From Plicaturopsis crispa FD-325 SS-3 (taxonomy: Eukaryota; Basidiomycota; Agaricomycetes; Amylocorticiales; Amylocorticiaceae), in the NCBI GenBank assembly GCA_000827205.1, contig KN832562.1, forward strand, positions 1-64,000: a stretch of DNA of 64,000 nt, read 5' to 3'. Both the position numbers and the translations under genes were made by a program. Every line of letters begins with the position of its first letter. The stretch's first letter is position 1. The notes beneath the pieces are model-generated. The model did not search any database, was not told the DNA's origin, and was given only the letters and a program-made list of their open reading frames with translations. Below are positions 2,605 through 29,135 of this stretch, piece by piece.

Positions 2605-3290
2605 ATGGCTTCGAAACCAAACGAGGAAGAGGTTTCCGACACGGTGCCTTCGAGGTCAGGATCATAATGGATGAGAGAATAACGCCGCTGGGGAAAGCTA
2701 ACAATATTTGTTCCGATTCGCAGCGATAAAAACTACCCTCAATCGAAAAGTGTCCTGCACCCTATCTACAGCCCTAAGGATACAAGGGGGGACGAAGAGA
2801 AGAACCCTTTCGACTCTGATGCTGGGAAACCGTAAATTCCTCGTTTCTGACTACTGCGCGAATAAGCGCTGACGGTGTCAAATCCTCACAGGGGATCGGC
2901 GTCCACAGGGTTTGTTTCTCTACCTCATTCTACATGAAGTCGTTTGATTAAGGGTGTCTACCACACACAGGCAAGCGCTCTCGGACAAACAATCTGAGGC
3001 TCGCGACACCAACGAGAATGCCACAGCAAAGACAGGCGCTCTACCTGAATCGTTAGTACCATTTTCTGTCGACGCGTCTTGTGTTCCTTGCTGATAACTC
3101 GACACGCTCGCGTGCCCAGAGCCCCAGAATTTACTTCTGAAGACGAGGATGATTTAATGGGGTTTGTGCTTCATGCCCTATGCTCCCCTGCCAATGTCCT
3201 GACCGTATTTGCAGTGGTTTCCGGTTTCGCGGCCCCAAGGGTGGCAGCGTCAACCAAGGTGGTGTCAAGCGTCCCATAAAACCGAAATAA
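2605..3290 (+). CDS. Small acidic protein with GFRFRG motif and basic KPK tail, cassette copy 1
   Basis: Six exons join into one frame of 124 codons: 2605-2654, 2724-2831, 2892-2909, 2971-3051, 3120-3161 and 3215-3290. All five introns are 52-69 bases with GT-AG ends, and all interrupt codons in phase 2. The product starts MASKPNEEEVSDTVPS, is rich in Ser, Asp, Glu and Lys, and carries an acidic patch (SEDEDD) just before a last exon that reads GFRFRG and then a Gly/Lys-rich basic tail ending KPK. There is no signal peptide or membrane segment, so it is probably an intrinsically disordered soluble protein. It converges on the WW/membrane gene whose stop lies 149 bases downstream. A paralogue with the same exon phases and the same last-exon start lies at 7756-8500. 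I do not know the family. The exon chain is inferred from splice signals and from the paralogue. Confidence 0.6.
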
Positions 3291-3438
3291 AACCATCTTG
3301 TCTAAGGTATCGCGTGCATTGCTGCTATGGAGGGTATAATGATACACGAAGATCCCGTTCTATTCTTGTTTACAAACAAACGTACAGTAATAATGTCAGC
3401 AGTATATATCCATCCATATCCATCGTCGTAAATGAACG

Positions 3439-6400
3439 TTATGGCCCTCGTATGCTCATCATCGCCGAAAGGGATGGTTCTCGGGGCTGGCGTCCCAAGA
3501 CCACATCCCAAATGTTTCTCCGGGGCTTCAGCGGGAAGTCCGCGTAAAGTTTCGCGCCCTCCGCGGCGATCTCGCATATTTTTTGCCACCATTTTGTGTC
3601 AGACCAGTTGGTCCAGTTCGGAGTTTCCCAAGCCGTGTATATGCACCACGATATGAGGAACACGATGACGAACCCAGAAAGCCCCACCACCAGCCGCGTG
3701 CAGAGGTTGGCACTGATGAAGCACATAGCGCAGAACGCGACAGCAAAGGAGACCATCCTATGAGTAACTGTCAGAATCGTACAAGCGGAAGAAGATGACA
3801 CGGGGAGACGTACCCCCACATGAGCAACGCGTATGGGAGACTGTAGATGATGGCTACAGTCTCGAGGCCCAAGAGGGTCTCCGACATTGCGCCCAAAAAG
3901 GTTGACTATTGCATGTTAGTATACACGTGTTCAATTCGAACGAATGAAAAGATGCACGAACAGCTTCCTCGCATGTGCCACGAGCCTTCGTACGGTTCTG
4001 CCTCACAAGCAGCAAGCCAAGGATGATACTGCCCACTGTGGTAATCATCGATACATAGCTGGCGAGCTGCGTGAAGGATCTTTGGGGCGGCGCATTCCCC
4101 GCGTCATTTGTGATGTCGACGCTCTGTATTGCCAAGAACGACACGTTGACCGTGAGCAGCACTTCAGCCTGTAGGCCAGATGTGAGCATTGTCCAACATC
4201 ACGACGGTGAAAAGACATCTTACGAGAAGGAGGAATTCCTGCCACTCCTTGTTGAGCTTGTCGATGAACACTTTCCACGCACTCTCAATAACAAGGCGAT
4301 CAACATAAATCCTGCGTAGTGCCTGCAGGTGTACGTCCGGCGCAGAGAAGAGGAGAGGAGAGAGAATCTTCAAAATCAAGGATCGGTCCTTCGACTGGAC
4401 ACTAGCGTGTACGGTTTGGTCCCGACGGATGCGGTGATTTTTTTCGCCGTGGTAATTGACGAATCTAACGTGTGCTGCCGAGAACGCGTTGGTTTTAAAG
4501 GAAGAGGATAGTACGAAGGAATAGCTCACCGCATTCGTAGAGGAAACGAGCTGGTGATTTAACAATGGTTAGCCCTTGTCGTGATTGATGAAATATTTTT
4601 TATTTACCCAACGCTGCCTCAATGTGTGGGTTTCGCTCTGGACCAGTTACTGTGCGGATAGGTCAGGAAAAACATACAAGCGTAGAGGCAAGCAGACATA
4701 ATCACAATTTACATGGCTTATAAGCCGTAGCATGGACTCGATCGTATCCGCAGTGTAGGTCGTGGTGGTATCCGTCGATGTCAAAACATCTGAGTATAAC
4801 AACTTGGCACGCGTCTCAAAATCCACGATATATATGTGACAACGCACCCGCTAGAGAAAATAGTAACAAAGCTTTGAGTTCTGCAATCACATCTGGAGTT
4901 AAATCCCAAAGGCCGGGAAAATATTCTCGGTGTTCCCTGATGAGCCTGTGGTGTCAGCGTTTATGGATGAAGTCTCTGCATCCAACGCACCAGTATTGCC
5001 CTTCTATGCAATGCTCTACAGCTCCGATTAGTTTACGGTGCAGTCAAGGCATGAAAGGAGCCGCATACTGAAATGAGAAGGCCCCACAGGACCACGGACG
5101 ACCTGCAGCAGGTATTCCGCGTCGAACTCTTTCAGCCAGAAAAGCGATCGATTATCGTGATCGACGAGGTAGTATCCACATAATATCTCGTCTACGGTGT
5201 CAGCCGGCACAAGTTCAAGCATAATTTGGGCATTATCGGGTATCTGCAAGCCGTCTTCGTGTGCCATGGTATAGACCTTGTTCGTGAAGTATTCAATATC
5301 TTGGAGAGCATCGATGTCGTAGATCCAGGCGTCCGTGACGACTTTCGAGGTCGGATTGAAGAAGTAGGGCGTCCCTTCTGGGTGCACGAACTCGATCCAT
5401 CCCGGCGGTAATAAATGTCTGGAAAAAAAGCTGTAAGCACGTATGCAGCGCATCTTAGGAAAAGTCTTACGTGCGATCGAATTTCGTTTGTAGCGGCGGG
5501 ATGACAAATTCTGCAGGCTTCAAGGGTCTGTGAATGCAAAGTAAGCATTTTGACAGGACGACCCAGTCCGGAGACGTACATATCCCGTTCCCGAAGGTAT
5601 CTCTCACTCCATTCGGGCGTTATCGCATACAGGCAGCGTTCCTCCTCTACAGGTGCCTCAGGCCGAGGGTCGTCGGGATGTGGCGCAACGTCAGGTGCAG
5701 GCAGTGCGACTGCATGTGTTGACGCTGGAGACGGTGGCGCAGAATGCGTCGAAGGTGCACGGCGGGACGACGAACGTTCTGACCGAAGCGACGGTGTCTG
5801 GGGGCGCGACGGCGGGATCAAATCAATCACTACGTCTGCTTCAGATGACAGCATTGAAGCAGGGTGCAAGGAATTGACGGATGAGGCCGCCAACCGAGAA
5901 GGCGGACGTGAAGTCGAATATGCGCGGGATGCTCGAGCTGGCAGGATCTCGACAGAGTGTGGCTGGTTCGAAAACATTCGCTGGCCAGCACTCGACACGC
6001 GGGATCTACGGCTGGATGTATGAGACGCTAACGACGCCATAGAGCGGCGGTTTTGAGGTCCAGCGCCACTATTTCGCGACACAGGGCGGGACATGGTCGA
6101 TCCAAAACCAAAGTCTTGCGTCGACCGCGAGTTGTTCGACGAAGCAAATCCATACGGGTGCAACGACCCTTGCTGGAGCCCATTGTCGGCATGTGGTGCA
6201 TAGGGATGCAAGGACGTCGGGTCGTAAGAATTGACATTTGGGGAGGAGCGGGTCGGACTGGCTCCAGCAATCGAGTAGGGCCGAACTGGCCCAAATGTGC
6301 GCCTTTCTGGCGAGCTCAAGTCCGGGTGGCTCGAGCTTTGCGTCAAATGGCCAGATCCGAGAAGTATAGTATGTGGAGGAGCTTGTGGCAATGCGCTCGC

Positions 6401-6670
6401 AAGAACGGTACCACGGACGCCGTCGTCCTCTGTTGGAGGGTCTATTGGTTTATCTAGAAGCCTTTGCTCACGCACGTCAGGTTTGGCAGACTCTCCCCCG
6501 AGACTGCCACCCGAAGGTCCTCCTCGAGTGTTCCGGCGACTCAGTAAAGCCCATATAGCATACAGAGTTTTCAACGAGCGCCGAGCGAAGGCTTGAGGGA
6601 CCGATAGGACGCGGCGTAATAGTGACAGAAACCAGCGGTAAAGCATAGACATTTTGCTATGAACAGACAT
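3439..6670 (-). CDS. WW-domain protein with C-terminal membrane segments, copy A
   Basis: A long first exon (6670 to about 5540) encodes some 375 residues: a basic, partly hydrophobic start (RWFLSLLRRVL), then a Ser/Pro/Arg-rich disordered region. The next small exon carries the motif PAEFVIPPLQTKFDR, which has matching segments in the two paralogues. Then comes a WW domain (LPPGW, a Tyr/Phe pair, closing Trp in TDAWIYD, without the usual final Pro) followed by a conserved Cys/Tyr/Trp-rich region with CGYYLVDHDNRSLFW. Later exons hold a conserved VDRLVIESAWKVF segment and about four hydrophobic stretches (for example FLAIQSVD, SMITTVGSIILGLLLV, VAIIYSLPYALLMWG, GFVIVFLISWCIY). The end is a charged cytosolic tail. 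I chose the start at 6670 because it aligns with paralogues B and C; a Met 5 codons upstream is possible. The gene looks intact. The family is, to my knowledge, uncharacterised; a membrane adaptor that binds Pro-rich ligands is inference. Confidence 0.75.
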
Positions 6671-7704
6671 AGCGCTATCGTACACAGAGCTTCATGGAAA
6701 AGAGAGATTCTGGAGCGCTCGGCTGTCCAATGTCGAAGTACTTACATGGGCGCCAAAGCTGAAGCTGCTTATGCACACGTGAAGTGCCTCGAGGCAGACG
6801 TCTGCGCTAGGCAGTGTCCGACCGGAAACCTAACGTCGACGCAAGGCCTGTATGTTGCATGGTGTAAATCCGTTCGAGTGATTGTCCTGGGATGTAGTGT
6901 GTTTTGCTGTAGAGCTGGAAAGTAGCGTGCCTGCAGTCAGGACGGTCAAAAAGTTATGAAGAGAAGAACTATATCGCGGAAGCACTTCGTGACTTGGTCT
7001 TTGACGCCCACCACGGTTGAAGACGCCCAAAACAAACTTGCTACCGTGCATCATGCTTGTCTTGCCTCAGCTGGAAACTTCACTCTGCCTGCAACATGAA
7101 CTCGGGAATCATGCGTGTATCCACCTTGTTCTACTTTAACTGATTTCTTTGTCCAAAGCACAGCGCGTACTTACCGGTTTTCCTGTGGAACGTCCTCAAC
7201 CCAGCCACCCGGAAGTCACCTTGTCATGCTCAGTAGACGGCGGCTATGCAAGACTTTCGTACAGAAGATTCTGTGGCCCACAGACCTGCAGAACACCACC
7301 CCTCGGTACCCACAGCCCACGGGAACTTGCCGACGCGTTGTGCCATAGCCATACATAGCTCACAGCACGGTTGGCGGTGCTCATAGCGTCCCAAAGGAAG
7401 AAGGAGAATCAGACATCGTGAGTACGATGGCTCTACTATCTAACTCCGTCGAGTCAAAGTAAGCGCCTTCAGAATGATTTACATTGAGATCTCGCTCACG
7501 CCGCCTTTAAATCGTAGGTGTAACTACCAATGATAGTCCTCGATTTATATGATCGCTCTGAGCAGTCTTCGTCCCTATCCAATGTCTGAGGTAGTAAAAG
7601 CCGCTGGGATGTTAAGGAACGTACCCTCGATGCTGAGCTGGCGAGACGCTGGCGGCGGTGCACCGGGAACATGCGGCTGGTTAGGCGCCCGCGACCTCAG
7701 ATGG
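6671..7704. other. 1.0 kb spacer between the two cassettes
   Basis: It holds the 5' side of WW gene A (minus strand) and the upstream side of the second small gene (plus strand). Open frames here are short and not conserved between the cassettes. I see no exon chain, RNA gene or repeat. Confidence 0.45.
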
Positions 7705-7712
7705 CATATAAG
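7705..7712 (+). promoter_or_regulatory. TATA-like element of small gene 2
   Basis: The sequence catataag lies about 45-50 bases before the ATG at 7756 and is followed by a pyrimidine-rich stretch and a run of cacacaacacacct leading into the start codon, as is common at fungal transcription starts. Confidence 0.4.
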
Positions 7713-7755
7713 CCTCACCCTCTGTTTTTGCTGCTACTCATCACACAACACACCT

Positions 7756-8500
7756 ATGTCCAGTACAGAAGCCGACCAGACCGTAGATCAAGGGTCCAAT
7801 CCCCACGACTTGGAGCTCGAGGCTACTTCGAGGTGTGTATATCGCAGGATATGGTCGGCTGCGTTACCTACCGGGCCCTTATCTGCTCAACGCACAGTGA
7901 TGACGGACAATCGGGGACGCTAAACCCTAGTGAACGTGCCACTGGAGCTGCAGCAAGCGACAGTGAAGTCACTGTGGAAACAGAGCCTGTCCAAGATGTT
8001 CATGCCCCTTCGTCAGTGCCCTGTTGAATTTCATTACCTTATCGTTTACTTATCAGACTCTTTAGCTCGTCAGCTTCAGCTAGCGAAGAGTAAGTACAAT
8101 GTGCGAAATATTGGCAGCTCAAAGTTCTTATGACTTTGACCTCAGCTCTCAAGCGCCAGCCCCTGCCGAGGAGAATGCAGAAAGGCAAGCTCGCTCATTC
8201 GTAGTCGCTGGCGGGAGACTAACTCAGTGTATATTATAGTGTCGACCTTCGTGGTACAATAGGGTATGGCTTCAAAGTCCTATCGCAACGTAGCGTTTTC
8301 TAAATCACAGTAATATCCGCAGGGGCTTTCGTTTCAGAGGCCAGCCGGATGTCCGTGCGGGAAGTAAAAAGCATGCTGCGCCTGTGCCGTCTTCCTCCTC
8401 GGCTAAGCCACATGCCACATCCAAGCCACATGCTACATCCAAGCCACATACCACCACTCAGCCACCACGCAAGCCACAAACTAATGCGAAACCGAAGTGA
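7756..8500 (+). CDS. Small GFRFRG/KPK-tail protein, cassette copy 2
   Basis: Six exons join in one frame of 143 codons: 7756-7832, 7931-8011, 8057-8089, 8146-8184, 8240-8263 and 8323-8500. As in copy 1, every intron is in phase 2, and the first two exons together are 158 bases in both genes. The fourth intron appears to start with GC (AG/gcaagc), the common non-canonical GC-AG type. The product begins MSSTEADQTVDQGSNP, is acidic and Ser/Ala-rich for about 85 residues, and its last exon opens GFRFRGQPDV before a basic tail with three KPHATS-like repeats ending KPK. It has no membrane segment or signal peptide. It converges on WW gene B, 289 bases away. The family is not recognised; likeness to copy 1 in exon phases and last-exon motif is the main evidence that both are real. 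Confidence 0.6.
8405..8449 (+). repeat. 18-base coding tandem repeat in small gene 2
   Basis: Two near-identical 18-base units (aagccacatgccacatcc, one base different) at 8405-8422 and 8423-8440 and a partial third encode KPHATS, KPHATS, KPHT. The repeat lies in the basic tail and is absent from copy 1, so it probably expanded after the cassette was duplicated. Confidence 0.8.
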
Positions 8501-8788
8501 CCGCAGGTTTCCGGGGCTATTCGCGACGAGAGCGAAAAGATGAAATATTCTGCATGAACTTGTCCAACGTTACATATGACATATGCCATTGCCATCGCTG
8601 TATAATGTGTCGAATTGCATACTTTCTTCCCCGGAATGGCTACGCGAGGCCTGAAAGACATGCTTGATTCACGTTGAGTGCCGGTGTGTATCGACGCTAT
8701 GTACGCGCATGTATAGTCATCATGATCAAGAACAACCTTGAGACTGCGCACCTGCTATCTTCTTTCAAGGACTCCGCGGTAATACGAG

Positions 8789-11700
8789 TTAGTCCCCAAG
8801 AGAACTTGCAGCTTCCCTGAAAGGGCCGAATGACGCTTTCCACCGACCCCGCGCAGACTTTTTCAACTTCTCGTACACACTCTCCCATAGTGGACCCCAA
8901 AATCCTTGGCTCTCCCAAGAGGCCCAGATGCACCAGCCTATCAGAAATAATACGATGCTTCCGGGAACACCGACGATCGTTCGCGTGTAAAGGCTCGTGT
9001 TCGTCAGACACATACTGCAAAATGCTGCTGTGAAAGAGACAAATCTGGAAAAGGTGTACTTTAGCTATTCCTCGGATTGAACGCATGTCTCAAGGACGTA
9101 CCCCCACAGAAGCAAGGCATGCGGTAAGCTGAAGATGATAGCGACCGTCTCGAGTCCCAAGAACGTCGCGCTCATTCCTTCGAGATATGCTGCCTGCATT
9201 CAGAATGGACATACCGTAAGTAACATATCCCGATGGGAAAAACACCTAGCAACAGTCACGAACACCATCGGGAGCGGTATTGCGGGTTTTTGTGCGGTTT
9301 TGGCGAACGAGGAGGAGTCCCAGAATGATACTGCCAATTGTAAATACCATGGACACATAACACGCCAACTGTGTCGCCGACCGATCTGGCGGAGCGTTTC
9401 CACCCTCATTCGTTAGATCCACGCTCTGTATAGCCAAAAACGACAGGTTGGCGGTGAGCAACACTTCCCCCTGCGATTCGGTTGTTAAAACTGTCCCTAT
9501 GCGTAAAAGACCGATGCAACTTACAAGTAGAAGAAAGTCTTGCCACTCCTTATTGAGTTTTTGGATAAACACTTTCCAGTCGACGTCGATGACAATACGG
9601 TCCACAAATATCTGCTGAAGCGATTTCATGTGCACGTCCGGAGCAGAAAACAACAGCGGGGAGAGAAAGCGTAGAAAGAGAGAATGACCTTTCACCGTAC
9701 TCTGGTGTAAGGTTTGTACCCTGTCAAGACGGTGGAATTTCTCCCCGTGGAAGTGAAGCCACCTCCACTGTGCTATAACGAGGATTAGTACTGCAGTGAT
9801 TTGGGAGAGTCAACTATGCATACCGTCTTCGTAGGAGGCCCTAGCTGTTCGAGGGATGGTCAGGATAGAAAGAAGGTAGAACGATATTCGCTTGCCTAGC
9901 AAAACTTCGGCATATGGATCACTGTCAGTAGAGTCTACTACAGCCCCGCCATTCGGTCACGACACAAGCAGAATATCGAAAGATGCCACATACAATCAAT
10001 TTGGTCGATTAATTCCACCAACCCTTTAAGCTTCTCCGTGTCCCATGCAACCGTTGACGTCGCCGACGTTAACATATCTTCAAGAATGAAGCATGTCAAG
10101 AACAGCAACCGAGATGCATTCATATACGAGATTCACCTCCGAAAGAGAAACGCAAACGCTTCTTTAAATCACGGACTGAGCTAGCGTCTGAACGGTATAA
10201 AGCAGGAAAATAATCCCGGTGAAGCCTGTCACAGTGATTTTACGCTGTCAGATGCATGGGAGGATGACTAGTACTAATGTGGATAACCATGATCAGCGGT
10301 CGGACCAGAAAGGCGTAAATAATTTTTGGATACACACCATACATCGTTTCTGACACCCACCAGTACTGAGTTTCCATCACATGGTCTGACATAGTATCAC
10401 TGAGCCTACTATGCACCGCGGGAAAACAAAGGACTCACTGAAATGAGACGGCTCGATGGTTGCATGCACATCCGTTAATAAGTATTCGGCGTTGAAAGTT
10501 TCCACCCAGAACAGACATTGATGTTTGTGGTTCACGAAATAGTAGCCGCAAACCATCGAGTCTTCAGATGGGAATATTTCAAGTACGAGTCCTGCACCGA
10601 GAAGATCACTTTGCCCGTTGTTCCGTGCCACGAGGCGAACCATCTCGGTAGAGTACTTGATGCCTTCATATATGTCCTGGTCGTATATCCAGCTATCGGT
10701 GATCACGTTTTCCCCAGCATTGTAGAAATAGGGAGCTCCTTCTGGGTGTACGTATTCGGCCCACCCTGTTGGCAGGTCAACACTAACTCAAGAGACATGA
10801 GCGCAGCAACAACATATACTTAAAGACAAGTGCTTACCCTCGAGGGAATTTCTCGGACATTGCTGGCACGCTGAATGTGGATACTTCGACGGTGGGCCTA
10901 CGAGTGCCTCTGTAACCGAATTCGACGGGAAAAATACATGTGCTCACATATCGCGCACCCGGCTGTATCTCTGAGACCATTTGGGTGTAATGGGAAATAT
11001 AGTGTGTCGTTCGTATTCAAGCGGTATCGCAGTCGACCCTGACGGAGCAGCTAGAGTTGGGGAGGATGTGTCTGGACGACACCCGGAATTGAGCGTTGTG
11101 TGATCTGAGACAGGCATGGTATTCCCGGAGAGCGATGGGGGGACGACGGCTATCGAGGGGGTCGATTTCGAGAGTGTGTGACGAGGCACATCGGCATACA
11201 CTGGGGAGGGACCGGCGGGTAGCGCGTGTCCCTCATTCGAAGAAGAGATCGACTGCCGTGAGGGAGAACTGGGGCTATTTAGGCTAGAGGATAAACGAGA
11301 ACGCGACGCCCTTTTGGAAACGAGCTCATCGGAAAGTGGTTTGTTTGACCAAAGTACGTCGTTCATTGAGGGGAGGCGTGAGCGACGAGTAGATATGTCA
11401 GATTGTGCGAGCGATACTGCAGAACGACGTGCGCTTCTCAGAGTGCTAGTCTGCGATGCAGAACGATGCATTTCCGGAAACAAATGAAAAGGCCCGGAAG
11501 GGGCCCCGGGCGAGATGCTCTCACGTAGCGATCGAGCATCCAAGGCCCGATGGGATGATTCTGAAGCGTCTTGAGGCAATCGAAGGCGTGGGTGGTGGAT
11601 TGCCAGCTCGTAACCCAAACGGTCAGGGGAGTGATTGGAGATCCCTTCAGAGGAGTGTGAGCGGGTGATCTCAACAGCGTGTCGTCCAGTCCCGGACAGA

Positions 11701-12008
11701 TTGGGTTGACTGAGATTATGCGGTGTGAGTCCGGCCGACGTGTTTTGGGGACGCCGCGGCAGCACCGCACTCGCGCAAATGGGAAGGTCATCGGGATTTT
11801 GCCAGCTAGAGTCTTTGCCGACATGCGTGATACGTTCTGGCTGGCCACCGGAGGGTCCTTTCGGCTTTGAACGACGATTCAAAAAGGCAAGGAGAAAGTA
11901 GAGAAGCCTAGATGGATGGCGGAGGAACAGGCGAGATTCGGATAAGACGCGATGCAGGACCGACAAAACCCAGCGTAAGAGCGCAGAAAGCCGACTACGA
12001 GCGGACAT
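8789..12008 (-). CDS. WW-domain protein with C-terminal membrane segments, copy B
   Basis: Same plan as copy A. Exon 1 (12008 to about 10950) encodes about 353 residues with a basic, hydrophobic start (LLRWVLSVLHRVL) and a Ser/Arg/Pro-rich disordered part. A 40-base intron then leads to the exon with STFSVPAMSEKFPR, and the next exon carries the WW domain (LPTGWAEYVHPEG, closing Trp in TDSWIYD) with CGYYFVNHKHQCLFW after it. Downstream exons hold VDRIVIDVDWKVF, FLAIQSVDL, SMVFTIGSIILGLLLV and GSIVLFLIGWCIWASWE. The frame that seems to stop after RVRDM is resolved by the short intron, so the gene looks complete. Its stop faces the stop of small gene 2, and the start is 244 bases from the end of the NDUFAF2-like gene. 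Likely a multi-pass membrane protein with a cytosolic WW module; function unknown. Confidence 0.75.
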
Positions 12009-12252
12009 GATGGTGTGAGTGGTAGGAGCAGAGGAGGGCCTGGCTAGATAGCATCGCCAGTTATACAGATGCTCGAGCGCTTGAATTCTTCACGTGAGGT
12101 ACCGTGAGGCACGCCAGGAAGCCATGGCACAGCAAAATCGCACCGAGTAGGCGCTCAGTAGATATGAAGCGTACCATAGAAAGCACTGCATTCGTTCTAT
12201 GATGCAGATAACAACCAACATACTACATTGGCTAGTGCGACGTCCGTGCACA

Positions 12253-13092
12253 TCATTCCCCTCGCCTCAGTGCTTGCGGCTTCCAAGATTGAGGCTCGTA
12301 TGCAGGCTTCGATGCCATTTCGGGCAATTCGGATTTTGGAGGTTTGGGAGAAGCATCCTGCGGAGGCATAGGGTGAGAAGTCTTGTTCTGTGGTATTGCG
12401 TGAAGGCCTGCTGGTTGCAGGGCGGTTGCGTCGTGGCTCTGGTGATGGGTAGTGATCGCCTGTGACCCTGCAGCAATTGCGGGAGCCTGTTTCTCCCGGG
12501 CTGCAATCAGGGATGCATTCATGAGGACACGCTGTCGCCGTAAGACATCCGCCTGCAGCTCCTGTGATGCAAAACCATATGTATGAGATTCGTCCGGATA
12601 GAAGAAGGTGGGCGCACTTTAATTGTCGGAGGATGGGGTCGCGTATGCGTCAACCAAGAATGCCATTGCGCTGACATCACACGCAGTCAAAGGTCAATGG
12701 TTGAAAAGGTGAGGAATTGACGGGGGCACGCACCTGAGAGTTGTTTTCCGCCGCCAATGTATTTCCACATATCCTCTGGGTCATAATATTCAACGGTCCG
12801 TCTCTTACGTCTGGAATCTGTGCGGATGGTGTAAGTGCTCTGGTCGTAATGCACTCTGCGTACTTACCATTGCTGGAGGCGGGATGTTCGTAGAATTTGT
12901 TCCCTGCTCAAAAAATTGGCTTCAACGCGCCGTAGCAAGAAATAAATATTGCTCACCTTCCAGATCCGTTCCAACGAAATAAGACTATGTGCATAGTGCG
13001 GTGTGTAAATGTCTTGTTCTGCACGAGTATGCTTCGCTTACAGGTCGCCTGATACGCTGAAGAAGTCGTCTCGCAGCTGCAATCAAAGACAT
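12253..13092 (-). CDS. NDUFAF2/NDUFA12-like mitochondrial complex I assembly factor
   Basis: Six small exons join in frame to 186 residues: 13092-13042, 12984-12957, 12903-12868, 12817-12734, a 53-base exon near 12685-12633, and 12561-12253. The N-terminus (MSLIAAARRLLQRIRR) is a basic amphipathic start fitting a mitochondrial targeting peptide. The core holds SYFVGTDLEGNKFYEHP, then RRTVEYYDPEDMW, then AQWHSWLTHTRPHPPT, the order and spacing seen in the NDUFA12/NDUFAF2 family (VG-D--GN-YYE ... R-V-Y ... W--WL-H-R--PP). Members of this family build or stabilise NADH:ubiquinone oxidoreductase in the inner mitochondrial membrane. The weak conservation of the R-R-W-V-Y segment and the extended Pro/Gln/Ala-rich tail favour the assembly factor NDUFAF2 (mimitin) over the structural subunit NDUFA12. 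Confidence 0.75.
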
Positions 13093-13848
13093 TGGAGTAG
13101 TAGCACAGAGCAGAGATACCACGCAGCTTCGAGCAGATAGAACTCGAGAGGAAATAGAGTCTGACTCTCAGGATTTTTGAGTAGTATAGGTTATTATGGT
13201 CCAACGTCGAACGCGCCGCCCTGTACGGTCCATTCTGGTTCCGGTCCACGTGGTCCTCACGACCTAATTTCCGCGCTCAAGGCGAATATTTTTGTGCGCA
13301 TCGCGACGTCCAAGCAGCGTCCACCTCAAAACGAGCTGTAATTGCACTGCAGTATGACGACCCAGTTATGTCCTGGAGAAACTAGACAGTCTGCTCAGGA
13401 AACGTGGTTCTGAGAACTGCTTGTGATCACTGGCAGCTCGGCTTTGGTACGCGGCTACGGCACCGTCGGTGCGTCCTCAGTTTATCAAAATGGGAACAAG
13501 AACTGGAACCTCACAATTGTTCGGTATACTCAAGCCCTACTTACAAAACCTTCGCCTCTCCTTTTCGGCTTTTGGAGCAACTCAGGAAGCGAAAGCACTT
13601 CGCAGAGCTCGATGGGGCTGCAGCAATCAGTCTTATCCGATCGATTTGCTCAACGGTTAACCGGGGCCCATTAATGTCAGTGGCAGGCTGGCAGCTCGGG
13701 GAGCTCGAAGTCCGATGACCTGAGTGCCCTTATGATCCTATATATATGTGAGTACGTATGAAGTCGCGGTCACAATTCCTTTTCTCCTTCTCATAAGTAT
13801 CTGTGCTCTTGTGTGACCACCCTACGCAAACCTAGCTCAACTAGAACG
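13093..13848. promoter_or_regulatory. Divergent promoter region with a TATA element (13737-13748)
   Basis: This spacer separates the start of the NDUFAF2-like gene (minus) from the start of the MetE-like gene (plus). The run cctatatatatg at 13737-13748 lies about 100 bases before the ATG at 13849 and is a good TATA candidate for the MetE-like gene. Open frames at 13404-13718 are not convincing as a gene. Confidence 0.4.
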
Positions 13849-15581: not shown

Positions 15582-15795
15582 GAAAAACACTTAAGACCAC
15601 CCATTCTTGTACATGTATACTGTATTTTTGCTGCAACCTTTGTCTCTTCCTTGCATTTTTCGAGTGACAGTGACATCCATAGGGTTTGCGGACTTCGGAA
15701 GATGAGCCGGTGAGACGAACGCGTATACGCGTCAGCTCTTCAGCTTCAGCTTTCGCAAGTCTTTCTCCTCGCTCTCCTCTAAATCTCTTGCAGCA

Positions 15796-17494
15796 ATGGC
15801 CGACGTGGAAATGAAACCCACCAACGATAAAAAGGAGGAGAAGGTCGAAGAAACAACGCCTTCGCCGCCCTCCCCCGTCGCCGAAATCAAGTCCAATGTC
15901 GCCCTCATCGAACGCGCCGTCTCGACGCTCGAGCCCCGTTTCACGCACCGCGTTCTTCGTGCCTTGACGGCGTTGCGGAAGAAAATTGATGACAAGATAC
16001 TGCGAGATGCGATTGAGGAAGTGTATGTCAAAGGTATGTACGGTTACATTGACGCTGTGGGGTTCTATTCCTAAACATACGCGTAGACACGCCCACCAAG
16101 AAACAACTACTCTCATGGCTCCCATCTGCCCAGTCTATGGAGATTGATTCCACAACTGTTCCCTCGACAAAGTCGTCTGCAACCCCCGAGCCTGTCCCCG
16201 AGGCAGATATCTACCTTCGCCTACTGATCATCCACCACCTTCTCACCTCGCCCACGACGTACCCCAAAGCAAAGGAACTCGCGCATGAGACCGTGGAGAA
16301 GATGCAGGCGCTGAACCGACGGAGTATGGACCCGATTGCTGCGAAGGTGTGGTATGCCCTTGAGAGAACGTATGAGCTTGGAGGGGAGCTTTCGGACGCA
16401 CGACCGTAAGTGGTTCATGTTAGTTTCCACGAATAAAATCTGATCTATCAATTAGTTTGTTCCTGGCTGCTCAACGGACAGCGTCCTTACGCCACGACGA
16501 CGAAACGCAGGCCTCGCTTATTAACCGCTTATTGCGGAGCTACGTGCTCTACAGCCTATATGACCAGGCGGATAAACTTGTCTCGAAGACGACTTTCCCG
16601 ACCTCCGCTGGAAACCCGCAGTTCGCCCGCTACCATTATTATCTCGGTCGCATCAAGGCTGTCCAGCTGAATTACACAGAGGCGCACACAAATCTGCAGC
16701 AGGCCATTCGTCGCGCACCGCAGCCGAAGATTGCTCCTGGATTCTACCAGGCCGTGCACAAATTTTTCGTGGTAGTCGAGTTATTGATGGGTGATATCCC
16801 AGAACGCGGTTTGTTTAGACATCCTGTGCTCGAGAAGGCGCTTAGTGCATACTTCGAGATCGTCAAAGGTATGCTGGCATATTTATTACTTCGTTTGGTG
16901 ACTAATGCAATTGCTGGTAGCTGTCCGCACGGGCTCGCTCTCACAGTTCCAGGCTACCCTCTCGGCGCACGCCGCACAATTTGAGGCGGATAAAACCTAC
17001 ACTCTGATCGTGCGGTTGCGGCAAAACGTTATCAAGACGGGCATTCGCCGCCTCTCGCTTTCGTACGCGCGCATTTCGCTGCGCGATATCTGCGTAAAGT
17101 TGCATCTCGACTCCGAGGAAGACGCGGAGTATATCGTGGGCAAGGCGATCCGCGACGGCGTCATCGAAGGACGTGTCGTGCACGAGCGGGGATGGATGGA
17201 GTGCGGGGGTCAGAAGGGTGGGTATGGACCGGAGGTCAGCGAAGTCTTCAACAGGAGGATAGGATATTGCCTCGAGCTCCACAACCAAAGTGTCAAGGTA
17301 TGCCAATGTGGCTTCACTGTTGTAGATCGAGTGCTCACTGCGTCGCGCAGGCCATGCGGTACCCTCTTAATGCACACCGCAAAGAGCTTGCCGCTGCAGA
17401 GGGTGCCCGCGAACGTGAGAAAGAGCTCGCCAAGGAGATTCAGGATGGCGACCTCGACGACGACGATGGCGGCATTGGAGGTAGTGAATTCTGA
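15796..17494 (+). CDS. RPN3: 26S proteasome regulatory subunit RPN3 (PSMD3)
   Basis: Five or six exons from MADVEMKPTNDKKEE to GIGGSEF give about 495 residues, the usual RPN3 length. The order is: acidic disordered start; RFTHRVLRALTALRKK (typical PSMD3 N-domain); helical repeats with ADKLVSKTTFP, ARYHYYLGRIKAVQLNY and EAHTNLQQAIRRAP; the PCI domain with YTLIVRLRQNVIKTGIRRLSLSYARIS and ISLRDICVKLHL; and an acidic end. RPN3 is a lid subunit of the 19S particle, scaffolding the deubiquitinase lid in cytosol and nucleus. No key segment is missing. Confidence 0.93.
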
Positions 17495-24503: not shown

Positions 24504-27500
24504 ATGTCGTCTCCTAGTCGACTTTTTGTGCTTTTGCGCTGTTGCTTTTACAGCCTGCGTCGCGTCCTATCCCGATATCTGACGCTCGCCGGTCATTCGC
24601 TCAGACTACTGTGCTCTCTACTCGCTCGCTTGAATCGACGACCTCGACCAAAAGGATCTTCCGGCGGCGAACCAGGATGTCTCTCACATTTAGGCAGTGA
24701 AATCACTTCGAAAAGCTGCGTTGATAGTGTCTCGATCTCTGCGAGCACGATTCCCCCAGTGCATCCAATACCGATGCTAGACGTGCACCCGACTCGGAGC
24801 ACTAGCAATCCTGATGTCATCACCGACAACGACACACTGTGGAAGTATGGAGAACGCCGTAGTCTCTCTCATAGTGATTTGGGTCTCTCCCGCGATGATT
24901 CAGGACCTCTTCGCGTTGGTGGGAGCTGTCCACCTTCGCTAACCGCACTACATATGTCGGTTAATGCAGCCCTCCCATCTCGCTCCGCCATGAACACTAG
25001 AGGTACTTCAAGACATTCGCATGCCTCGGTAACGTCTCTCAGACTGGAGCCAGATGACATCTCTCGTTGGCCATCAAATCATTCTTACGGCAATGATGCG
25101 CTATTCGACAAAATTCCCTTCCCATCCGAGATGTCGCTTGCGCAAGCGTCTGATTCCCATGAAAATTCCGGTACTCGCATCTGCCGCTCGTCTTTGCCGT
25201 CCCCGCGTTTGTCCATCTCTTCCTTCCGTACAGCATTAACAAAAGCAAGATCCTCGTCTCTTTTTAATGACGAGTCGTCTGGTCTACCTCACTCCCGATC
25301 AGATGTGGCTGAATACAAATCGATGATAATATTTCCGATAACACCTCTGCGGAGGTCCCACAGAGTGCTCAATCTGTGAGAGTAATTGCGCACTTCCAGC
25401 AGCCTTTACTCATAGATGCATCCTCAGGCCAACCGTCGAGCCCGAATTCACTGTTCCAGCAATGTCCGGAAAATTCTCGCGGACGTGAGGTTTTGCTTTG
25501 ATTTTCTGTATTTTTGCTCATATCTAGTTCATTAGTGTTGCTTTACCTCCAGGATGGACCGAGTACATACATCCTGAGGGAAGCCCTTATTTCTTCAATT
25601 CCGAGAAAAAAATCATCACCGATAACTGGATATACGACGTGGGTACTTATGATGACATCAAGTATTCAGCTGAGAAAATCCACGCCGTGGCACGCGAGAA
25701 TGGGTTGACCATTCCCGTGGATGCTAGACTCGTCCTTGAGATATTCCCCTCGGAAGTGTCAACGGTCTGCGGCTACTACTATGTCAACCACAGCCATCGA
25801 TGTTTGTTTTGGGTGGAAGACTTCAAAGTTGACTACTTGTTAAGAGCTGTTCATGCACCCGTGGAGCCCTGTCATTTCAGTGTGTCTCGTACTCTTTCTA
25901 CCCCGGGTTGTCATTGATTTCATTGCAGACCATGTAATGGAAGCTCAGTATTGGTGGGTATGCAATATACGGTATGTTTCCAATCATATCAACTATTTTG
26001 TGTATCAGCTAATGATGATTATCTGTTTTATAGCTTTGGTCTTTTGTGTCACAGTTTACCGTTACGACAGGCGCCACAGAGAACAATTCCCGGCTCTGTA
26101 CTATTCGGACGCCAGATCTATCCGTGACCTGAAGAGCCGTTTGCGGTTCTCTCTGGGAGGTAGATCAGGAGTGTCATGCATGCTAGTTCTGCGATTGACG
26201 TCCGCTCATTTGCAGATTTACTAACATCGACATCGACAACCATTCCATGGGATCCAGCGAAACTTCAGGTCCTGATAGGATTGATAGACCAAATTGATCG
26301 TAGGTCGCTTCGTATTCTCCTTTTTGTCGCAATTTCGTTTCTTATTTATGGTGCGGTGGCCTAGTAAACGACACCAATAGTGACCCGCATTCCGAAGTAT
26401 TGATTGGCAAGTTGAATGTAGTCCTCCTCCTGGATCGTTCTTGATCCTCAATCGTCTGTTGAACAGCTAGAGCCTTCTACGACAACGGTGCGCATGCTGT
26501 AGTCTCCCGTCTACGATGACCCTGATCTTCATTGTAGCACAATGGAGGTGGCTTAATTTCCATGGGGAGAAAAACCATCGCCTCCATCGGGCTCGATCCA
26601 TGCATCAAAGCACTGCGAAAAAACGTCCTCTTTTTATGCGCTTGATTTCCCCACTTTTATTCTATGCTCCAGATTTGCATATCCGCTCACTCCGTCGAGT
26701 ATTTGTGGACCATGTTGTCATAGACGTTGATTGGAAAGTGGTCAACGAAAGACTCGTCAAGGATTTGCAAGAATTTCTTCTGCTCGTAAGTAACTTTTCA
26801 TCGCAATCGGTGTCATTTGCGTCGATGCCTAATAAGCAATCATATGCAGGGCGAAGTGTTGCTTACCGCAAACTTGTCGTTCTTGGCTATACAGAGTGTA
26901 GATTTAACAAACGCGGGTGGCGATGCTCCGCCGGCACGATCACGGACGCAGCTAGCGTGTTATGTCTCCATACTATCCACTCTTGGTAGCATCGTGCTAG
27001 GGCTCGTGCTGGTACGCCGAAGCCGTTCTCTACTCGAAAGCCCTTCAGTAGTATGTGGATAGCTTACGTTCCATCTACCTCACGGCGCTGATGATTTATG
27101 GATATAGGCCCACTGGTTCTTTGAACGCATGGAGAGGACTTTCTTAGGACTCGAATCAGTCGCCATTATCTTCAGCTTGCCGTACGCCTTGCTTATGTGG
27201 GGGTACGTTCTCATTGATGTAATCAGAGCACCCAAGGCACTAACTATCTTTAAGTATGATCTCTTTCACCGTAGCATTCTGCAGTCTATGCTTGACGGGC
27301 ACAAACTTTTCCACCCGGATGATAGTTAGTTCTGCTGGGTGCCTCGTTTTGCTCCTCATATTTTGGAATGTCTGGAGCTTTTGGGAACGTGATGGGCTCT
27401 GGGGTCTCCAATGGTGGAGACTACAATGGTGGAGACTACAGCGGGTGTTGAAGAAGGCCAACCGCAACATGAAGTCACAGGCGGGGGGCGCTTGGAGGGC

Positions 27501-27579
27501 TACTCTGAGGAAATTGCGGGGCGAATCGATCGGCCGAAGGTTTCCTACACATAGGTCCTCTGGAGCTCCCGCAGTATAG
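24504..27579 (+). CDS. WW-domain protein with C-terminal membrane segments, copy C
   Basis: Third member of the family, on the opposite strand to A and B. Exon 1 (24504 to about 25376) encodes about 291 residues with the same basic, hydrophobic start (LFVLLRCCFYSLRRVL) and KGSSGGEPG, then a Ser-rich disordered part. A 40-base intron leads to EFTVPAMSGKFSR. The WW exon reads LPPGWTEYIHPEGSPYFFN with closing Trp in TDNWIYD, followed by CGYYYVNHSHRCLFWVED. Then come VDHVVIDVDWKV, FLAIQSVDLTN, SILSTLGSIVLGLVLV, FSLPYALLMWG and SSAGCLVLLLIFWNVWSFWE. A 15-base duplication near the end doubles a QWWRL unit. The start was set by alignment to A and B (MSSPSRLF rather than the Met four codons upstream). 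No GFRFRG gene was found beside it. Function unknown; a membrane adaptor is inference. Confidence 0.75.
27409..27438 (+). repeat. 15-base coding tandem duplication in WW gene C
   Basis: The unit caatggtggagacta occurs twice without change (27409-27423 and 27424-27438), encoding QWWRL twice just after the last membrane segment. Copies A and B have a single, more diverged Trp-rich stretch here, so the doubling looks recent. Confidence 0.85.
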
Positions 27580-27902: not shown

Positions 27903-29135
27903 CTATAGTTCGTCATGTACACCCTCCGAAACATCCACGGGTTGTGTTTCGTGCGCCGGATCTGGCGGATATACTGTAGAAAAGACCGCGGACGAAGAGC
28001 TGGGCGGTAAAGAATGTGACGAGGATTCTGACGCAGATAGATGATCGCCACCAGAAGACACAGAGCTCACTGCAACCACCGCCGTGGCTATACTGGACGC
28101 GGCTGCAGGGACGGTCTGCAGTACATCCCCTCGCTCCAATGCCTTGAGGTCGTCCGCGTCCCCGCGGAAATTTGGTATGAATCGCGTCCACCACAGTGCG
28201 ACCCGCAGACCGCGGTCGACAATGCGCTGTTTCAGAATGAAAAGCACGACGAGGATGAAGAATGCAAGGCCGGCGAGTATTAGCAAGCGGTCCATCCAGT
28301 CGGACTTCTCGAGAGCCGTTATGAGCTGCTTAGAGGTGCCCATGACATTCGTGAGCGTGTCATGGGCGCTAGACGTCGAGCGTAGAGTAGCGGTTGACGA
28401 GTCTACGGAACGTCTCTTGAGTAAGGATGAAACACGTCTGCTCTGTGACACGTACCGAGCATTTGAGAAGAGAGGACAGAGCGCTCGAGCTCGCCTTGCA
28501 TAAGGCCTATCGTGCGCCGTAATGCCTCTGTGACATCATCATTGGCTTTCATAAGAGTGTCGTCTCTGAGCCGGCAATCAGACACCGAAGAGTGCGGTAC
28601 CAGATATGATAGACACGTACGTGACCTTCTCGTTAGGGTCGTGTTTTTCCTTCACCGCAGAGGAGCGTAGCAGCTCTTCCCGAGCCGACTGGCTCTGGGA
28701 GTCGATCGTTCGCTTGGATGCTAGCAATGCTGCACGCGCATCCTTCCGTAAACTAGGTCTTGGTCAGCGCATCTGACCGCAGGACATTTGCACCCAGCCA
28801 CTCACTTCACAAGGACGTTTCGGTATTCGTCAACAATCTTCTGCAGCTCCCTCCGATTCCGGGCGCCTCTCTGGTCACCTATCATCACCTCCAAAGACTG
28901 ACGGCACTTGAGAATAAGATAGCGGTCATCTTGTACGGTCACTCACTTCGATTTGACGTGCAAGTGCGTCCACATCCTCGCGCAATTCCGCGGCCAGCGT
29001 TTCGTGCACTGCGAACGGCCCAGGACATTTCCGCAAGCGCGGTATTTGGAAGGAAGAGAGATCTGTTTCTCTTCGTTGGATAGATTCTATGAGCGCGACG
29101 GTTTCTGAGTCGAATGTACTGGGCAGAGGCGGCAT
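27903..29135 (-). CDS. SEC20: SEC20-type SNARE of Golgi-to-ER retrograde transport
   Basis: Exons from MPPLPSTFDSETVALIES to GVHDEL give roughly 340 residues. The middle has coiled-coil segments (TLAAELREDVDALARQIE; KDARAALLASKRTID), then the Sec20 SNARE motif: DVTEALRRTIGLMQGELERS, VLSSQML, and after a 54-base intron SSTATLRSTSSAHDTL and LITALEKSDWMDRLLIL. A single membrane segment follows (LAGLAFFILVVLFIL). These fit the Sec20/BNIP1 family, a Qb-SNARE on the ER that receives COPI vesicles. Unlike typical yeast Sec20, the luminal end is a Ser/Ala-rich tail. It ends in HDEL-like residues, a C-terminal HDEL, the classical ER retrieval signal, as in yeast Sec20. A Met 23 codons upstream is an alternative start. 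Confidence 0.85.

Follow-up and report, generated by a model that had tools for sequence, protein, structure and literature searches.

Two convergent gene pairs at the left end of the window

The window analysed here comprises the first 64 kb of a contig 1.4 Mb long; the genome has 33.2 Mb in 49 contigs. At the left end of the window lie two small genes on the plus strand, S1 and S2, and each meets, tail to tail, a WW/membrane gene on the minus strand (WW1 and WW2, respectively). The positions of these genes and of the other features discussed below are summarized in Table 1. The gap from stop codon to stop codon is 148 bp in the S1/WW1 pair and 288 bp in the S2/WW2 pair, and the start of S2 lies 5151 bp downstream of that of S1. 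The spacer between the two pairs gave nothing but low scores in blind gene finding (17.2 and 12.0). An earlier note on this DNA had described a two-gene cassette present twice, tail to tail and in the same orientation; its coordinates hold closely, and a blind gene finder gives the same structure for the small genes.

Table 1. Positions of the genes and other features in the window
Feature	Position	Strand	Remarks
S1, small gene copy 1	2605-3290	+	six exons, five phase-2 introns, 124 aa
S1 exons	2605-2654, 2724-2831, 2892-2909, 2971-3051, 3120-3161, 3215-3290	+	
Start of S1 last exon	3215-3235	+	GGFRFRG when the split codon is counted
WW1, multi-exon WW/membrane gene	3439-6670	-	runs from 6670 to 3439
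Tandem WW exon of WW1	5417-5064	-	
Spacer between the pairs	6671-7755		1,085 bp; WW1 and S2 start on either side of it and diverge
S2, small gene copy 2	7756-8500	+	six exons, five phase-2 introns, 151 aa
S2 exons	7756-7832, 7898-8011, 8066-8089, 8146-8184, 8240-8263, 8323-8500	+	
Start of S2 last exon	8323-8343	+	GGFRFRG when the split codon is counted
WW2, paralogue of WW1	8789-12008	-	runs from 12008 to 8789
Tandem WW exon of WW2	10775-10437	-	
WW3, third paralogue	24504-27579	+	inverted relative to WW1 and WW2; groups with WW2
Tandem WW exon of WW3	25543-25884	+	
Sec20-family gene, convergent neighbour of WW3	27903-29135	-	Sec20 match at 1.2e-12; occupies the expected place of a small gene

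Structure of the small genes

The ten introns of S1 and S2 are 53-69 bp long and all in phase 2, with GT-AG borders in nine cases and GC-AG in the fourth intron of S2. In both hand models the last intron interrupts the Gly codon that precedes GFRFRG. These models were compared with the output of a small dynamic-programming gene finder, which was supplied with the splice consensus and with the codon use of other exons in the window and had no knowledge of the resemblance between S1 and S2. The best blind chain had six exons and five phase-2 introns in both regions; it was identical to the hand model in S1, and differed from it in S2 at two exon starts (8057 for 8066, and 8338 for 8323).

A six-exon chain with all introns in phase 2 was obtained from none of 300 dinucleotide shuffles (150 per region) and from none of 102 control stretches (51 per strand), among which one had at least five introns in a single phase and three reached a score of 42, that of S1. 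The codon score in the proposed frame was not reached by any of 2000 shuffles for S1 or for S2, and in S1 one antisense frame also scored above zero (4.2 versus 8.0 for the proposed frame).

Tandem acceptors are present in the region of the last S2 intron (8264-8345), and use of the acceptor before 8338, which is 15 bp downstream of that in the hand model, would drop GFRFR in frame. The S2 tail contains an 18 bp tandem repeat of 2.8 copies (8405-8454) encoding KPHATS repeats; this repeat may account for the greater length of the S2 tail and suggests a weak constraint on it.

Both small proteins consist of an acidic part, GGFRFRG and a basic tail, so that the description of the product as acidic in the earlier note applies to the part before the motif and not to the tail. 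They look like disordered proteins. Pfam gave no family for either at E <= 10 (the S2 query carried one extra Ser), the PDB gave no match for S1 and one that was not credible for S2 (E = 0.88), and the one NCBIfam match was far under its cut-off and was disregarded. The order of the parts resembles that of the CHZ histone-chaperone motif (PF09649), in which an acidic run leads into a G-x-R-x-R-G core. However, neither protein matched the PF09649 profile at E <= 10, and the one CHZ place in this genome was found on another contig (C3), which ruled out a CHZ identity for S1 and S2. A literature search for GFRFRG returned no match, and we regard S1 and S2 as an orphan small-gene family.

Relatedness of S1 and S2

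Taken by itself, the amino acid sequence makes a weak case that S1 and S2 are related. Their local alignment score of 69 (shuffled mean, 44.8) was equalled in 31 of 5000 shuffles, whereas no shuffle out of 5000 gave any common 7-mer such as the spliced GGFRFRG that they have in common. Outside this motif the two proteins scarcely align; the S1 tail, used as a protein query against the genome, matched two pieces of S1 and missed S2 at E <= 10, and tblastn reached S2 through GFRFRG alone (E = 0.44). A bare 6-mer match, counted without splicing in three frames, is not rare, as it occurred in 70 of 3000 random pairs of regions from the window. Together with the blind S2 model, which omits most of the motif, these results are what would be expected if S1 and S2 were not homologous, or if one of the exon chains were wrong, and the pairing were a coincidence around two WW paralogues. 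We nevertheless regard such a coincidence as very improbable, since the same blind six-exon, all-phase-2 structure, absent from every shuffle and control, was found at the same position by two paralogous genes, and since the combination of acceptor and motif was found nowhere else in the genome.

This combination (acceptor, split codon and GG[FY]R[FY]RG) was searched for throughout the 33.2 Mb and was found at two places, S1 and S2. Its rarity is no proof of relatedness, because the reversed control of the pattern has three places; the telling point is that both matches sit at the tails of WW paralogues. A looser GFRFRG pattern was found at nine places, versus seven for its reversed control, so that the bare motif is about as frequent as expected by chance. 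In two of the nine places the letters are GFRFSG and GFSFSG, and only at S1 and S2 is the motif preceded, after one intervening base, by an AG acceptor. The strong support for S1 and S2 comes from the gene structure and the codon use in the proposed frame. The paralogy of the small-gene partners, as proposed earlier, is thus upheld by the blind six-exon, all-phase-2 structure and the unique acceptor-motif pair, despite the weak likeness of the sequences.

The WW/membrane gene family

A genome search with the WW exon found five places, namely WW1, WW2, WW3, a copy on contig C17 (L021) and a distant copy on contig C18 (L022), and a search with the membrane exons found the first four of these; the copy number of the family is valid as far as these exon searches reach. 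WW1 and WW2 are paralogous, as had been stated earlier, with an identity of 59.8% over 323 columns of conserved blocks chosen by hand. In such blocks, the identities are 50-64% among WW1, WW2, WW3 and the C17 copy, and 25-31% between these and the C18 copy. In a tree of five rows from hand-chosen blocks, WW2 and WW3 form a group (support 100/99) and the other inner branch has a support of only 84/81; rooting with the very long outgroup branch (C18) is unsafe. Given these limits of the tree, neither the order in which the duplications took place nor the number of losses is certain.

WW1, WW3 and WW2 passed the PF00397 cut-off of 26.9 bits in the genome search (31.8, 27.8 and 27.2 bits, respectively), and the WW exon of WW1 alone scored 29.4 bits; the C17 and C18 copies were absent from the list of genome matches at E <= 0.001. 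A profile of the five WW exons retrieved WW proteins from the PDB, the best at 6e-7 (NEDD4-like), and the second half of the profile aligned with a YAP1 WW domain (0.0098). An AlphaFold2 model of the WW2 exon, computed from only three input sequences (mean pLDDT 60, below 50 from residue 92 on), has three strands between residues 5 and 26, a helix from 33 to 52 and three more strands between 62 and 91. The top Foldseek matches of this model were WW domains and WW tandems, a likeness that is merely suggestive because none was found at E <= 0.001. Two WW-like units with a helix between them seem to be encoded by the WW exon.

The canonical WW domain is marked by two signature Trp positions, the second of which binds the ligand. 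In the alignment, as read by eye, the first unit of all five members keeps the N-terminal Trp and has Asp or Glu in the place of the second, whereas the second unit of all five keeps Y-Y-x-[VI]-[DN]-H and F-W and has the second Trp without the first. Unlike the canonical PF00397 domain, in which both signature Trp residues are in one unit, neither WW-like unit here has both, and a WW tandem with such a split signature is unusual.

WW1 has a Ser-rich N-terminal exon, the tandem WW exon, and hydrophobic segments towards the C-terminus. A hydropathy scan of its joined tail showed three hydrophobic stretches, the last of which (64 residues) may form two or three helices. WW1 to WW3 all begin with a basic N-terminus of only moderate hydrophobicity. 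The WW/membrane products have the look of multi-pass membrane proteins that carry a tandem WW-type module and, at the N-terminus, a long low-complexity arm. The long arm is present in WW1, WW2, WW3 and the C17 copy, whereas the C18 copy, as far as can be seen by eye, seems to be without it; the C18 copy presumably resembles the commoner form of the WW-domain membrane proteins of mushroom-forming fungi. Searches with the WW-exon profile gave 40 stretches that fit the pattern, with no confirmed relative, in a collection of viral contigs, and one 19-residue match in a bacterium, taken as chance, in a collection of genome contigs. A shallow literature search, whose results lacked the WW term, found no study of this WW/membrane family.

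The small gene at the other copies of the family

We scanned the ends of the family members blindly for the small gene, in nine regions and on both strands. Neither end of WW3, the C17 copy or the C18 copy yielded a six-exon chain with all introns in phase 2. An obligate cassette would place the partner with most family members in this genome; the small gene lies beside two of the five (WW1 and WW2). One six-exon chain that the same scan gave upstream of the C17 copy (phases 2,1,2,2,2; score 15) was taken as noise.

The tail of WW3 converges on the Sec20-family gene at a distance of 323 bp. The C17 copy has a convergent neighbour at about 7320-8500 of L021 (minus strand) with several hydrophobic stretches; three of its open frames gave no Pfam match, and its minus-strand open frames start about 100 bp past the C17 stop codon. 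On the assumption that WW3 is the sister of WW2, and that S2 arrived together with WW2, WW3 has lost the small gene or arose without it; likewise, the C17 copy has lost it or was made without it, unless this copy branched off before the pair was formed.

These results bear on the suggestion of the earlier note that the two genes were kept together and that their products therefore act together. This suggestion is not supported, as the small gene accompanies only two of the five WW/membrane places and is lacking at WW3, the closest relative of WW2. The further proposal, that the small protein binds a WW adaptor, likewise finds no support, since PPxY, LPxY and PPLP occur in neither S1 nor S2; S1 has one P-x-Y, and one PPRY is found in the C17 copy's own arm. 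A joint function of the two products is unsupported, rather than disproved. Binding or regulation of each WW/membrane protein by its cognate small protein, with the pair having been duplicated and kept as a unit, is consistent with the arrangement and the close tails that both pairs retain, and a binding groove could exist in the second WW-like unit, where Y-Y-x-[VI]-[DN]-H and F-W are conserved in all five members. We consider such a partnership unlikely nonetheless, given the absence of PPxY, LPxY and PPLP from both small proteins, of a small gene at the WW3, C17 and C18 copies, and of appreciable alignment between S1 and S2 beyond GGFRFRG. A more elaborate version is highly speculative: the GGFRFRG proteins would form an orphan family that serves tandem-WW membrane proteins exclusively, the pairs would co-diverge as cognate specificities with GGFRFRG as an invariant docking element, and the S2 acceptor 15 bp downstream could switch the motif off.

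The arrangement might also have been kept without protein contact, if overlapping 3' transcripts let each convergent gene damp its partner. The short tail gaps of the two pairs would allow this, and a survey of natural antisense transcripts by strand-specific RNA-seq exists for Ganoderma lucidum (PMC5515960), which is in keeping with such a mechanism. However, WW3 converges about as closely on an unrelated gene, and so does the C17 copy on its neighbour, so that tails lying close together are no peculiarity of the pair; this regulation in cis seems to us a less likely explanation than a partnership of the products.

Duplication of the pair as a unit

The two pairs have paralogous partners in the same order and the same orientation, as expected of a tandemly duplicated gene pair, and the duplication of the pair as a unit, which had been inferred earlier, is well supported. 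At the DNA level, similarity between the two cassettes was found in the WW gene only, which shows that the duplication that gave S1-WW1 and S2-WW2 is old.

We think it probable that the present arrangement reflects an old tandem segmental duplication, that inheritance as linked genes is the main reason why the pairs persist, and that later WW copies were parted from the small gene or arose without it. The ancestral segment would have carried a small gene and, on the opposite strand, a WW/membrane gene, with their tails close together, and would have been duplicated in tandem long ago to give S1-WW1 and S2-WW2. The WW2 lineage may later have produced the inverted copy WW3 without a small gene, and another family member would have ended up on contig C17, again without one. 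The persistence of the pairs would then be due mainly to linkage by descent rather than to joint function. A counterpoint is that WW1 and WW2, at about 60% identity, both still have the small gene, when separation might be expected by then.

The event itself, in which a segment with two convergent genes was duplicated in tandem, is ordinary, and it brings to light an orphan family of small genes together with a WW tandem whose split signature is unusual. If the pairing were conserved across species, it would be the first clue to the role of the WW/membrane family.

Two other genes were noted beyond the second pair. A chain predicted upstream of WW2 (12009-13700, minus strand) is presumably similar to NDUFAF2, an assembly factor of NADH dehydrogenase. 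At about 15793-17400 (plus strand) lies a gene for the 26S proteasome subunit Rpn3/PSMD3, in which the open reading frame at 16424-16984 matches Pfam TPR_PSMD3_N at 3.5e-62.
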